DNA of 44,045 nucleotides from positions 1-44,045 of the forward strand of contig JAJZXE010000005.1 in assembly GCA_021802505.1 (NCBI GenBank), read 5' to 3'. The notes below the pieces were generated by a model, which saw only the letters and a list, made by a program, of their open reading frames with translations, searched no databases and was not told the DNA's origin. A program made the translations under genes and the position numbers. The stretch is from Nanobdellota archaeon. Lineage in GTDB: Archaea; Nanobdellota; Nanobdellia; Parvarchaeales; Parvarchaeaceae. Positions within the stretch are counted from its first letter, which is position 1. Every line of letters starts with the position of its first letter. Positions 2,134-36,760 of this stretch are shown here, in pieces.

Positions 2134-5100
2134 TTATTTCTCCGAATTCATTTTGCTTATTTCTTCTATGTTCTTTTCTATTTCCTTTATTGCATTATCG
2201 ATATCCTCTTCCTTTGTGTATCTCAGCCTTGCTATTTTCTGTTTCACCGGCAGGGAAACGAGTTTTTCCATTGTAATGTTTCTCGTTAATGCCGCCTTTT
2301 CCGTTTCAAATAGCTGCATTATAATTTTGAGCATTTTATACTGCTTGCTTACCGAGGCATAGGTGTCAACCTCATCGAAAGCGTTTTGCTGAAGGTAATC
2401 CTCCCTTAACGTTTTGGAAATCTCCAGAATAAGCTTGTCAGATTCAGGTAAAGCATCATATCCCACCAGCTGCACTATCTCATTTATCTCCGCCTCTTTC
2501 TGCAGCGTCGCCAAAGCGCTGCCCCTCAGTTCCGGCCAGTCCTGCGCTATGTTCTTCCTGTACCATGCATCTAATCCATCGGTGTAAAGCGAGTAGCTGT
2601 TCAACCAGTTTATCGACGGGAAATGCCTAGCATTCGCCAGCGCTGCATCTAATGCCCAGAAAACCCTTGTCACTCGCAGTGTGTTCTGCGATACCGGCTC
2701 GGATATGTCACCACCTGGAGGAGAAACCGCTCCTATTATAGTTGCAGAGCCTGTTTTTCCGCTGAGAAGTTTTGCGCGTCCGGCTCTTTCATAAAACTCT
2801 CCGATCCTCCTGCCAAGATAAGCGGGATAACCCTCTTCACCGGGCATTTCCTCCAGCCTGCCGGAAAGCTCACGCAGTGCCTCGGCCCATCTGGAAGTAC
2901 TGTCCGCCATCACGGCTACGTTGTAACCCATGTCTCTGTAGTACTCTGCTATAGTTATCCCGGTGTAGATGCTTGCCTCCCTAGCGGCAACGGGCATGTT
3001 TGAAGTGTTTGCGATCAAGATGGTTCTGTCCATCAGCGGCCTGCCGCTCTTTGGATCCTTTAATTCAGGGAATGTAGTCAGTATTTCAGTCATCTCATTT
3101 CCGCGCTCACCGCAGCCAACGTACACTATCACATCCGCGTCGGACCACTTTGCAAGCTGGTGCTGGATTACTGTATTATGGAGAAGAATGGCTCCTTCTC
3201 CCCCGACAAAATTGCTGCCAAACTCAGGAGTTACAACATCATATACATCAAAAGGTCCCGGAATTTCTTCTATCTTTTCTATCCTGTCAAAGTACACAAA
3301 TTCCAGTGCTTTTGCAAGGTAATTTAGCCGTTGTATCTGCAAGACGTTAGAGTGGTTTACCGAAAGAGTTTGTACAAATTTATTAAAGGAATTGACGCTC
3401 ATTTTTTCATTTCCGCCGGTGTAGTTGGTTATTTCTAATCCGTTTGATTTCAGCTCGCTGTAGCTGGAATAGGATCTATATAAATCTTGTACAGTCTGTC
3501 CTTTCAATGGAACTAAATCCACCGCGGTATAAGTATTTCCTTTTGAACTGCAATATGTTTTGATTTTCTCAATTTTTTCGTATTCGTTTTCTTCGGATTT
3601 TACGCTCGAATAGAATTTTTTAAGTTCATTTATGTTCCTTATAAATATCCTGTTTCTATCATTTTCGCTTAGGCTCTTGTTTGTACTGAGGGAATGCAGT
3701 ATTCCCAGCCTGGTCAACAGGTATGACAGTCCTATCGATAACTTTTTACTTGCGGTGGATAATTCTATATTTCCCTTATAATAGCTGCCGTCTCCCAGGT
3801 AGTAGCCCTTTAAAAATGCGGATATAATCTTGTCATTTGATTTCATTATCATTGTAGGTATGTATTTATCAGTAGCAGATCTAGCGTTTATCATTTTTTT
3901 CACAAAGCTGACCAATATTACGCTGTTGACCAGTACATTCGGAGTTTTATCTCTCGGTCTTTCGATTTTACTGTCTAAATTAAATACCTCTTTTATCAGG
4001 TACTTTACCCTATTAAGCAGCTTTTCATCTGAATTGGTGAATACAAACGTGGTTTTTCCCCTCAGATATCCCTCGGCTACATAAAACCCAAGCAGTTCCG
4101 CCAGTTCTTCGGACATGTAATCGGGAATAGTTACTATATTGCCCCTTCTGTCTCCTCTCAGTTTATTTATCCGCGGTAACTTTATATTGAGTGCATCATA
4201 AGCCTGTTTTATCCACTTTATTTTCGGTGCGGGATTATTTTCATTTCTGGTTATCTGGTTTATGATATCCTCTTTCAAACCGCTCTTTATTACCTTCTGT
4301 CTGTTCTTTTTTACCAGCGATTTAAGTTCTGCCTTGATGCTTTCATCGCTTGCCCGGGCCTCTGCAAACAGTGAGTAAACGTCTATATCCTGATCTGTTC
4401 CATTCGTTTTAAATTTCCTTATAGAAACTATATACTCTCCTTCCTTCAGTGAGTTAGCGGGTGTCTCCCTTATCTGGCCGTCCGGATCCAGTCTAAATAA
4501 CTTATGAATAGGCGTTACCTTTACTTTTTTCCCAGTTCTTGTTTTTATTCTTAATACAGAATCGCTTTTTCCTTGATATATGAAATTTGATGCGCTTTCA
4601 GCGACTTTTCCACCGTAGAAAGAACAGGTTTTTAGGGGAGAATCAAGTTTAATCAGCGTTTCATTCTCATCCCGATATTCTATTTTGCCGCTTGATAACG
4701 CCTCTTCATATACTTTCTCTATTGTTTCTATGCTTCCGTCCCCTAAAAGAATCGGCGTATCTCCGGTTACGCACTTACCAGATCCGAAAGGCCCCGGAAC
4801 CGCTGCAGTTCCTCCCATGGCTACCGGAAACATCGTATCTATTACCCTCTGCCCTGTCAACAAAGGTATGAACGGAGGAAGTTTTTCCTTTACCGGACGG
4901 GGAGTTCTCACCGGCCATTTGTTCATCATCTTTATGTTTTCGTTCTTTCCGTCGTTATCCAAAACCATTATCGTGTCTTCAATCGTGTACTCTCCTTCTT
5001 CGGCTATCTTTTTTACTTTTCCTTTTTTATCGGGCGGCAGAAGTATCCTGTGCTTTATAAGCGAGCTCTCTTTTACCTCGCCGATCTCCTCTCCATAATC

Positions 5101-5484
5101 TAGTTCCTGGCCCTCGCTTACTTTGGGTTTGAAATGCCATTTCTTTTCTCTGTCCAGCGAATCTACGGCTACTCCGCTTCCTATGAACGTTCCCTCTTTC
5201 TCCAGGATCTTATCCAACGGTCTTTGTATCCCGTCAAATATGGATCCTATCAAACCGGGGCCTAACTCAACGGACAAAGGCTCGTTTGTATCAATGGCCT
5301 TCTCCTCTACCTTTAATCCGCTGGTGTCTTCATAAACCTGGATTATCGCGTTTTCCCCGTCGAGTTTAACTATCTCCCCCACAAGAGATTTGTCTCCGAC
5401 AAGAACGATATCATTCATCTTAGGATTATCCAATCCCTTCGCAATTACAACCGAACCAGATACGCTTATTACTTTTCCTTCCAT
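2134..5484 (-). CDS. atpA: A-type ATP synthase catalytic subunit A, intein-containing precursor
   Basis: 1116 aa; exteins carry GPFGSGK|T P-loop, [36 protein letters not shown]; interrupted by an in-frame intein. Confidence 0.97.
3175..4773 (-). mobile_element. Intein with LAGLIDADG (DOD) homing endonuclease domain, 533 aa, in atpA
   Basis: Starts at Cys238 ([14 protein letters not shown], block A), block [13 protein letters not shown], two DOD motifs ([14 protein letters not shown] and [16 protein letters not shown]), block [23 protein letters not shown], ends HN followed by Thr+1; splits GPFGSGK/TVIQH. Confidence 0.95.
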
Positions 5485-33544: not shown

Positions 33545-34477
33545 ATGAGTCCCGGGGAATTTTGGGTTTTTGCGGTGGGAGTGATAGTGCTTGTGCTGCT
33601 GTTCCTCTTCAGTCTGTTCGTACCCAGCCTGTTTTACATCTTTCTTATCATATTTATCGTACTTTTGGCCGTGATATTCTTCATAACATTTGTGAAGAAA
33701 TACAGCCAGTTTGAAAGAGGGATAATTTTTAGGCTGGGAAAGTTCAACAGGATAGCCGGGCCGGGCTGGGCCGTAGTTGTACCGTTTTTTGAGGAGGAGT
33801 ACAAGAAAGTAGATGTGCGTGTTAAAATGATGGATATAAGCTCTCCAGATATATTCACTTCAGATGATCTTAAATTATCTATAGATGGCACCATATACTA
33901 CCAGATAGTCGATCCGGAAAAAGCCACGCTTCAGATAGACAATTACGGCCAGGGTCTATCAAATCTTGTGCAGTCCGCCGTCAGGAATGCAATAGCCTCT
34001 TTAACAATGAGGCAGGTTTTTGGCAGTTTGGACAGGCTTAATGACATATTAGCGGATGCGATAAGACATATGACCTGGAAATGGGGCATTGATGTTCCAT
34101 CGGTACAGATAAAAACGGTTTCTCCTTCTAACGAGGTTATACAGGCCATGCAGCAGCCGGAGATATCGGCCAATCTGCTGCAGGCGCAGAGGTTCAAGGC
34201 CGAGGCTCAGAAGATTGTGATAGAAGCCATCGGAGAAGGTGGAAAGTCGCTGGATGACAGGTCTATAATGTATCTCTACCTGCAGGCGCTTAAGCAGATG
34301 GGGGAATCCAGTTCGTCGAAGATAGTCCTTCCGATGCAGTTCATGCAGAATGCGGGCGGCATGCTCGGAGGAATAGCCGGGTTATCGACAACGGCTTTAG
34401 CTTCTTTGGGCGGGCAGGAAAACGTGCAGAATGTAATTGACAAGATAAAGGAAAAGATGTCCCAGGCAAATTCCTAG
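33545..34477 (+). CDS. SPFH/Band 7 (stomatin-like) membrane protein
   Basis: 310 aa; two TM segments then ERGIIFRLGKFNRIAGPGWAVVVPFFEEEYKKVDVRV. Confidence 0.93.
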   Translation: MSPGEFWVFAVGVIVLVLLFLFSLFVPSLFYIFLIIFIVLLAVIFFITFVKKYSQFERGIIFRLGKFNRIAGPGWAVVVPFFEEEYKKVDVRVKMMDISSPDIFTSDDLKLSIDGTIYYQIVDPEKATLQIDNYGQGLSNLVQSAVRNAIASLTMRQVFGSLDRLNDILADAIRHMTWKWGIDVPSVQIKTVSPSNEVIQAMQQPEISANLLQAQRFKAEAQKIVIEAIGEGGKSLDDRSIMYLYLQALKQMGESSSSKIVLPMQFMQNAGGMLGGIAGLSTTALASLGGQENVQNVIDKIKEKMSQANS

Positions 34478-35193
34478 GGGGATATACCTAATATCTTGTA
34501 TATCTGTTTCATGTCTTCTATTATGTAATCCGGCTCTGATTTGGACACTCTGCCTTTTTCAGTGTTATATCTATCGAACAAAACGGTAAACATGCCTGCT
34601 GATTTTGCGTTGTCTATGTCTACCTCCGGCACATCTCCTATAAACAGCACCTCATCTGGCTTTAAACCCATAAGCCCGGCGGTTCTCTTGAAAGCGCCGG
34701 GGTCGGACTTGCTTTCAGGGATTCCTTCTCTTGCAATGATCTTAACGTCAAATTTTTCCATAAAACCGATCTTTTCCAGGGTCTTTCTCTTTAAACCGGT
34801 GTACATTCCTTCGCCCGTGAGCAGGCCCATCTTCAAGCCGTTGTTCTTGATGGCGTCAATGACTTCTTCTATCCCTTCTGTAAATTCCATCCTGGTCAGC
34901 AATACCTCCTCAAATGTATCGGAGTATTTCCTGATTTTTTCCCGGTCCATATCAAATCCGCTGGCCTTCGCAAATAGCTCGTAGAAAAGTTCTTTATGCC
35001 TGTAACTCGGTTCTATTTTTTTGTATTCTATATCTGTCTTTGCGTGCATCTCATTGAAAAAATCTTCGCTTATCTCATCAAAATCCCTTTTCATCTCGTT
35101 TATTACTTCTTTATTCGCATCATCTATTATTTTGGAGGAATTCAATATCGTGTTGTCCAGATCAAATATCACTCCCTTTATCTCTTTTTTCAT
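34474..35193 (-). CDS. HAD-superfamily hydrolase
   Basis: 239 aa; GVIFDLDNTILNS, GLLTGEG, VLFIGDVPEVDIDNAKSAGM. Confidence 0.92.
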   Translation of the reverse strand: MKKEIKGVIFDLDNTILNSSKIIDDANKEVINEMKRDFDEISEDFFNEMHAKTDIEYKKIEPSYRHKELFYELFAKASGFDMDREKIRKYSDTFEEVLLTRMEFTEGIEEVIDAIKNNGLKMGLLTGEGMYTGLKRKTLEKIGFMEKFDVKIIAREGIPESKSDPGAFKRTAGLMGLKPDEVLFIGDVPEVDIDNAKSAGMFTVLFDRYNTEKGRVSKSEPDYIIEDMKQIYKILGISP

Positions 35194-35205: not shown

Positions 35206-35277
35206 AGCCTCCGACGGGTGCTGGCCCCGCGACCTTCTGCTTACAAGGCAGACGCTCTACCGCTGAGCTACGGAGGC
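35206..35277 (-). tRNA. tRNA-Thr (anticodon TGT)
   Basis: Cloverleaf GCCTCCG TA GCTC AGCGGTA GAGC G TCTGC CTTGTAA GCAGA AGGTC GCGGG GCCAGCA CCCGT CGGAGGC T; anticodon at 35243-35245; T-loop is non-canonical. Confidence 0.92.
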
Positions 35278-35347
35278 TTTTCAGCCTCTAAATAGTCTAT
35301 TACATTGAAATGAACTTATATATTTTATGCTTAACCTATACTGTTAA

Positions 35348-35971
35348 ATGGAAGAATATGAAGTAATAGAGCATCTCAAATCCGGTTCGAAGCCAGCGGA
35401 TAACAAATTCCTTATAGTGGCCATAAACTATAAAGAGCCCACGTACGTAAAATTCGAAAGTGATCAGGATTTTAAGGTCGGAGACAAAGTTAATATGGAA
35501 AATAAGGATGTTTTTTTTCAGGGTAAAAAGATAGGCGAGGTAAGAGAGGTAAAAAAAGCAAATGACGTGAAAATAGATACAAGATACGACATAAAATACA
35601 CGGGCGGCTATTCGGTAGACGGCAAAAAGGTCTATCTTGATGAACATTTTCCGAAGACAATAACCGTTGACGGCAAAGTTGTGGACACCGTGGAAAGCAT
35701 AGACAGACATCATGAAGTTACAGAAAAATGGCTTGTTGACGATGCATACGAGTACGCATATGCGCATGAAATAGCTACAAAGATAGAACGGGAATACATC
35801 GAATCCATCGGGGTAAACTGGGATGATTACTGCAAGGAAGTCAACAGAAACCTTCATGAAGTTTACATGACAAAAGCCGAAAAAACCCCCTCGGATCTGG
35901 ACCTCGCGCCATACTTTTATTCAAAGGATGAAAAAGCCCTCAAGGAAATAAGGGAAACAAAAAATAATTGA
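35348..35971 (+). CDS. Uncharacterised protein with conserved-looking His/Glu segment
   Basis: 207 aa; DRHHEVTEKWLVDDAYEYAYAHEIATKIEREYIESIGV. Confidence 0.6.
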   Translation: MEEYEVIEHLKSGSKPADNKFLIVAINYKEPTYVKFESDQDFKVGDKVNMENKDVFFQGKKIGEVREVKKANDVKIDTRYDIKYTGGYSVDGKKVYLDEHFPKTITVDGKVVDTVESIDRHHEVTEKWLVDDAYEYAYAHEIATKIEREYIESIGVNWDDYCKEVNRNLHEVYMTKAEKTPSDLDLAPYFYSKDEKALKEIRETKNN

Positions 35972-36010: not shown

Positions 36011-36760
36011 ATGGAAGACAAATTCATTGATGTCCATGCCCATCTGAGCGATCCTTCTTTTACAGATAGGAAAAAAGAGCTGTTTTCAATGTTAAAGGAT
36101 TCATACTTAGTTCTCAATGCCGGCGAAAATTCCGTTCAGGACAGAAAAATACTCGATGAAAGCCGTAACTTAAGTTTTCTTCTTCCGTGCATAGGCCTGC
36201 ATCCGAACGAAATAGCCAGGATGGCATATGAGGACGCAGAAAAAGAACTCGCTTATTTTTCACAGAATATCGCGGACTTTTTTGCGGTATCCGAAGTGGG
36301 TTTGGATTACAGGGGAAAAGACACCTACCAGATGGAGCAGGAAAAAGAATTTTTTTATAGGATTCTTGAGCTGTCAGAAATAAACAAAAAAGTGTGTATA
36401 ATCCACAGCAGAAAAGCCATAGAGGACGTATTTGATGCCGTGTCCGGTTTCAAGGTAAAGGCAATCCTGCACAATTTCGAGGGGAATCTGCGGAATCTTA
36501 AAAAAGCGGAGGAATTAGGACTGTACATAAGCGTGTCAACCGGTTTTATCAGGTTCAAAAAGGACAACGTAATAAAAAACATAGCCCTTGACAGACTTTT
36601 TACCGAAACTGATTCGCCGGTCCTCAGCCCCGACAGTGGTATAAATACTCCGCTCAATCTACCTAAACTATTAAACTATATATCAAGTATAAGAAACATG
36701 GGTGTAAATGACTTAAAATCTGCGGTCTATAACAATTTCAAGAGAGTATTTTATGATTGA
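36011..36760 (+). CDS. TatD-family metal-dependent hydrolase
   Basis: 249 aa; IDVHAHLSDPSF, VSEVGLDYRGKD, ETDSPVLSP. Confidence 0.93.
   Translation: MEDKFIDVHAHLSDPSFTDRKKELFSMLKDSYLVLNAGENSVQDRKILDESRNLSFLLPCIGLHPNEIARMAYEDAEKELAYFSQNIADFFAVSEVGLDYRGKDTYQMEQEKEFFYRILELSEINKKVCIIHSRKAIEDVFDAVSGFKVKAILHNFEGNLRNLKKAEELGLYISVSTGFIRFKKDNVIKNIALDRLFTETDSPVLSPDSGINTPLNLPKLLNYISSIRNMGVNDLKSAVYNNFKRVFYD

Follow-up and report, generated by a model that had tools for sequence, protein, structure and literature searches.

The only tRNA-Thr(UGU) gene found in G000, a metagenome-assembled archaeal genome, carries the T-loop GCCAGCA, and it probably encodes a functional, ACA-reading tRNA in which the 54-58 pair of the T-loop has been swapped to G54-G58, with the contacts that dock this loop against the D-loop retained. 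The gene lies in a 44,045 nt stretch of DNA (the window), contig 19 of a genome assembly of 763 kb in 28 contigs, 84% complete; the host clade consists of Parvarchaeum-like, Candidatus Parvarchaeota-type MAGs, tiny acid-mine archaea. The features on which the analysis turns are, in window coordinates:

35206-35277, minus strand: intronless tRNA-Thr(UGU) gene of 72 nt, ending at discriminator U73 with CCA not encoded (RF00005, fold, covariation)
35214-35230, minus strand: T-arm GCGGG-GCCAGCA-CCCGU, stem compensatory in relatives (alignment of relatives)
35219-35225, minus strand: T-loop GCCAGCA, that is G54 C55 C56 A57 G58 C59 A60 (sequence)
35258-35264, minus strand: D-loop AGCGGUA, G18 and G19 retained (sequence)
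35292-35332, minus strand: upstream promoter region, conserved in 12/12 copies of the locus (footprint comparison)
35326-35315, minus strand: TATA-type element AAAATATATAAG (conserved footprint)
35306-35292, minus strand: conserved promoter element AATGTAATAGACTAT (conserved footprint)
34474-35193, minus strand: HAD-family hydrolase, downstream of the tRNA (Pfam, tblastn on relatives)
35348-35971, plus strand: 207-aa protein without a Pfam match, conserved next to tRNA-Thr(UGU) across most of the clade's genomes
36011-36760, plus strand: TatD DNase family (Pfam), near tRNA-Thr(UGU) in genomes with GCCAGCA, ATCATCA, TGCGACT and canonical (G013) T-loops

Read 5' to 3' from 35277 to 35206, the intron-free tRNA is GCCUCCG / UA / GCUC AGCGGUA GAGC / G / UCUGC CUUGUAA GCAGA in its 5' half and AGGUC / GCGGG GCCAGCA CCCGU / CGGAGGC / U in its 3' half. 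The initial annotation had described an intact T-stem within an otherwise normal tRNA-Thr ending in U73, and this holds: Rfam model RF00005 matches the gene end to end (model positions 1-71) with 58.6 bits against a gathering threshold of 29, and the cloverleaf is the predicted minimum-energy fold. Among relatives the T-arm stem varies in compensatory fashion (GCGAG/CUCGC, GAGGG/CCCUC, GUGGG/CCCAC). Over all stems nine base pairs show two-sided changes, a number that 0 of 500 shuffles reach, and 98.9% of cells are paired, the D-stem being too invariant to inform. G1-C72, C2-G71 and U73 are archaeal threonine identity elements; all three are present here together with the UGU anticodon, and they are common to other threonine isoacceptors of the genus. 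The gene at 35277-35206 is not called by ARAGORN.

The T-loop itself, reported in the initial annotation, is confirmed from the sequence and is identical in 11 genomes. It fails the consensus T54 T55 C56 R57 A58 N59 Y60, which is typical of tRNAs and not strictly defining: among the fixed positions it keeps just C56 and R57, as had been noted, and it has purines at both 54 and 58. To gauge how unusual this is we took every RF00005 gene of five genomes of one genus (G000, G020, G011, G016, G007), 192 genes in total. At position 54, 186 genes have T, 3 have C, 2 have G (both tRNA-Thr(UGU)) and 1 has A; at position 58 the counts are 189 A, 2 G and 1 T, and at position 55 they are 165 T, 21 C and 6 G; C56 is invariant (192/192). 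In G000 the 41 other RF00005 tRNAs (42 total) all have T54, A58 and C56, and GCCAGCA is unique. The type is not shared by the lineage's other tRNAs in this census. Of the three deviant positions originally singled out (54, 55 and 58), G54 and G58 are indeed rare, whereas C55 is a routine state in the genus, and A60 had been overlooked; it is G54, G58 and A60 that set GCCAGCA apart. The same census contains tRNA-Ala(UGC) genes with C54 (CTCAAAT) and A58 at G011:C13:12300-12372 (L170), G016:C21:14507-14593 (L278) and G007:C35:4461-4547 (L286).

Among 371 genomes sampled from the phylum, a non-T54 tRNA-Thr(UGU) pattern matched in seven, all of this genus, to which the altered loop is therefore restricted in that sample; a listing of threonine tRNAs across the class gives essentially canonical T-loops outside the genus. 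In a separate pattern scan, most matches from outside Parvarchaeota lack T-arm closure at the expected positions, look like interrupted tRNA genes, and were excluded (L083, L084, L086, L088, L090, L092, L096, L097, L100, L104, L106, L110, L111, L113, L114). Two further matches from Firmicutes (L091, L093; C54...G58 with a T53-T61 mismatch) are apparently extra copies in genomes that also have ordinary Thr(UGU) genes.

The 12 copies of the GCCAGCA gene in these 11 genomes are nearly invariant: the whole tRNA is identical at 72/72 nt in ten genomes and at 71/72 in G020. Its neighbours have diverged, the HAD-family protein being 51-58% identical to the G000 copy by tblastn in genomes with the same tRNA, the TatD protein 63-66%, and full-length SMC 73-78% across the same genomes. 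A TATA-type element lies 40-50 nt upstream in 12/12 locus copies, flanked by variable intergenic DNA, a footprint in keeping with a promoter external to the gene, as in archaeal transcription. The concern originally raised over loss of box B does not apply, since box B belongs to RNA polymerase III promoters and is irrelevant in archaea. The twelfth copy arises because the G001 bin holds two tRNA loci (L001, L027) with unlike flanks, one resembling G008 and the other identical upstream to G039; given these different flanks, the bin probably mixes two strains. Elsewhere in the window, the catalytic subunit of an A-type ATP synthase (2134-5484, minus strand) is split by an intein with LAGLIDADG domains.

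A search for another tRNA-Thr(UGU), suggested in the initial annotation, found none among all RF00005 matches of G000 (84% complete), G020 (93%) and G011 (91%). Counted over 35 long ORFs from the window, threonine is encoded 518 times, 138 of them by ACA. With no other UGU gene found and ACA in frequent use, the most economical reading is that this tRNA decodes ACA; it perhaps helps with ACG as well. ARAGORN does report a 'Thr(tgt)' at G000:C28:41395 and G020:C26:36235, but these are misread intron-bearing tRNA-Ile(UAU) genes rather than second copies (G000:C28:41395-41493, L058; G020:C26:36235-36331, L145; a further one at G016:C16:1813-1908, L267). The tRNA-Ile anticodon UAU is listed as absent in archaea (PMC8007984). 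The same review gives ANN anticodons as missing in archaea, with no A34 deaminase known there (PMC8007984). We observed tRNA-Leu(AAG) in 5/5 genomes and tRNA-Pro(AGG) in 4/5, the latter missing from the 75%-complete G007; the loci include G000:C28:93329-93411 (L051) and G000:C2:11-85 (L041), with others in G020, G011, G016 and G007, and neither Leu(GAG) nor Pro(GGG) was seen among the tRNAs of these five genomes. These two tRNAs are possibly more important than the T-loop finding.

Comparison across the genus reveals that positions 54 and 58 change jointly: U-A in the canonical loop, G-G in the GCCAGCA clade, and A-U, with A60, in the sister genomes G011 and G017. All three non-A58 tRNAs of the census fall among its six non-T54 tRNAs; random placement would give this overlap with probability 1.7e-5, a value to be read with the relatedness of the genes in mind, as the counts are not independent and reflect two phylogenetic events (G-G and A-U). 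The A54...U58 state has also arisen independently in bacterial tRNA-Thr(UGU), as ATCATTC in an Anaerolineae MAG and ATCATAC in a Planctomycetota MAG (L098, L099), each apparently the sole Thr(UGU) gene matched by the pattern in its assembly. Both 54 and 58 are thus altered together in all of these, the bacterial and G011/G017 loops differing from GCCAGCA in having A54...U58 with U55 (ATCATCA, ATCATTC, ATCATAC). Positions 18 and 55 show a similar dependence. In tRNAs with a 7-nt D-loop, G18-U55 occurs 41 times, G18-C55 nine times and A18-G55 five times, with no mixed cases; the A18-G55 set of five spans Thr(UGU), Gly(CCC) and Phe, and its two Phe cases hinge on D-loop numbering. Further instances of A18 with G55 are Gly(CCC) of G000 and Thr(UGU) of G004. 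In tRNA-Gly(CCC) and tRNA-Phe (G000:C13:2511-2581, L054; G020:C34:13851-13921, L146; G016:C5:20011-20081, L266; G020:C2:18407-18478, L141) this is a compensated change of the D-loop/T-loop contact.

The joint change at 54 and 58, together with retention of the rest of the elbow, leads us to propose that a G54-G58 pair would take over from the reverse-Hoogsteen U54-A58 pair, with A60 in the place of Y60. The docking contacts would be kept, with G19 pairing C56, G18 meeting position 55 and purine 57 lying between, and C55 would stand in for Psi55, which roughly one in ten tRNAs of the genus also does. From the sequence we infer a G54-G58 pair within a normally shaped elbow. Zagryadskaya, Doyon and Steinberg reportedly selected active suppressor tRNAs with G54-G58 in 2003, and are said to have modelled the pair as a mimic of U54-A58. 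The G54-G58 combination is shared with those active tRNAs, which were reportedly laboratory selections in E. coli from randomised T-loops, whereas here the gene is natural, archaeal and fixed. Their paper is listed as reference 150 in PMC7912444. A54-U58 and U54-A58 are not strictly isosteric, which counts against the proposed swap. The statement in the initial annotation that docking must differ is nevertheless too strong: G18, G19, C56 and R57 all remain, many tRNAs of the genus have C55 opposite G18, and G54-G58 can replace U54-A58.

The T-loop was probably rebuilt in place, at one locus, from an ancestral canonical loop. Genomes of the genus carry GCCAGCA (11 genomes), ATCATCA (G011, G017) or the canonical TTCAACT (G013), while tRNA-Thr(UGU) genes bearing A18 have TGCGAAT (G016, G007) or TGCGACT (G004). 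Genes for Band 7 and TatD proteins adjoin tRNA-Thr(UGU) in the GCCAGCA genomes, G011/G017 and G004, and TatD does so in G013; no such neighbours were found in the 3 kb compared at the gene in G016 and G007. With the exception of these last two, tRNA-Thr(UGU) is one locus across the neighbour-compared genomes. A tree of SMC places the GCCAGCA genomes in a single clade (100/100), which includes G003, a genome in which tRNA-Thr(UGU) was not found; G011/G017 form a separate clade (100/100), and the GCCAGCA clade, G011/G017 and G016/G007 are grouped with support of 91/94.

The replacement of U54, U55 and A58 bears on modification: as the initial annotation recognised, the usual substrates are missing, so Psi54/m5U54, Psi55 and m1A58 are impossible on this tRNA, and the enzymes that modify U54, U55 and A58 would be expected to skip it. 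m1I57 would be possible in principle, A57 being present. The archaeal Pus10 family model gave only sub-threshold matches in 27 of 28 genomes, and the one match examined proved to be Cbf5 (298 bits against a cut-off of 242); Pus10 was thus not detected, though a diverged copy is possible. Cbf5 can form Psi55 in vitro (PMC7912444). We hypothesise that C55 and G55 may be more easily tolerated in a lineage without Pus10. A tentative broader reading, which we consider possible though on balance doubtful, is that the elbow in this genus is no longer bound by the near-universal TPsiC rule, possibly following the loss of Pus10. Its tRNAs might then drift through compensated 54-58 states (U-A, G-G, A-U, C-A) and 18-55 states (G-U, G-C, A-G), and tRNA-Thr(UGU) might be the extreme case.

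Other explanations differ in how much of this pattern they accommodate. The D- and T-loops might instead dock through an antiparallel three-pair kissing helix, 18-20 GGU or GGC with 54-56 GCC or AUC, which we regard as unlikely. The pairs could be formed in G000 (G18-C56, G19-C55, U20.G54), in G020 (with C20-G54) and in G011 (G18-C56, G19.U55, U20-A54), and a canonical UUC loop could not form the third. Position 20 is commonly U, however, and any residue other than T at 54 has a chance of roughly two in three of complementing it, which makes such fits weak evidence; the helix also leaves the change at 58 along with 54 unexplained and does not fit the C54 bacterial loops. T-arms are common integration targets, and a mobile element, virus or tRNA-cutting nuclease could have driven the change, for example through loss of an integration or cleavage site. 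Within the GCCAGCA clade tRNA-Thr(UGU) is the only tRNA altered at 54 and 58 together, which would suit such a cause, but the tRNA sequence is in no viral contig and the locus keeps its synteny, the scanned neighbours including no integrase, so that this origin is quite improbable. A viral or plasmid source for the gene was likewise rejected, there being no viral matches and only short, partial, bacterial plasmid matches.

Staphylococcal cell-wall glycine tRNAs have altered T-loops and a non-ribosomal role. A comparable specialisation here, in aminoacyl-tRNA-dependent transfer, could draw on the altered T-loop and missing modifications weakening elongation-factor binding; we think it slightly less probable still, as this is the sole ACA-reading gene found in G000, G020 and G011, ACA codons are common, and there is no transferase among the scanned neighbours. 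That the gene is a pseudogene or decaying copy, for which the ARAGORN miss might speak, is scarcely credible beside 72/72 identity in ten genomes despite diverged neighbours, compensatory stem changes, a conserved promoter and its position as sole UGU gene. The data being from MAGs, a read error at the T-loop had been raised as a possibility; the chance of a sequencing or assembly error is negligible, since ten further genomes, sampled differently and assembled separately, have the same sequence, with contig coverage from 1.5 to 270 where given.

The tRNA with G54 and G58 is a lineage-specific natural variant of a well-known RNA, most likely fully functional, and no new system. It resembles a canonical archaeal elongator tRNA-Thr(UGU) in its cloverleaf, anticodon, G1-C72, C2-G71, U73, G18G19, C56, R57 and 7-nt T-loop, and differs in that G54, C55, G58 and A60 replace U, U, A and Y. 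Eukaryotic initiator tRNA-Met has A60. Purines at 54 and 58 as well as A60 are common to that tRNA and to ours, in which the pair is predicted, although ours is an archaeal elongator with G54, G58 and C55 and no initiator features; a CAU anticodon is absent, the tRNA having UGU. The initiator is a natural, functional tRNA with a purine-purine A54-A58 pair (PMC7912444).

A standard finder of the ARAGORN type misses this gene, so that ACA decoding would wrongly appear absent from such genomes. The genus series of canonical, A18/G55, A54-U58 and G54-G58 forms could serve directly to test in what order the steps occurred. If the elbow of the genus has indeed been freed from the TPsiC rule, these tRNAs would be a natural counterpart to laboratory elbow selections. 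Few motifs in biology are as conserved as the TPsiC loop. If a cellular tRNA present in single copy does live without U54, U55 and A58, then other base pairs can hold the elbow in natural tRNAs as well as in laboratory selections, and an essential tRNA can do without the usual T-loop modifications.
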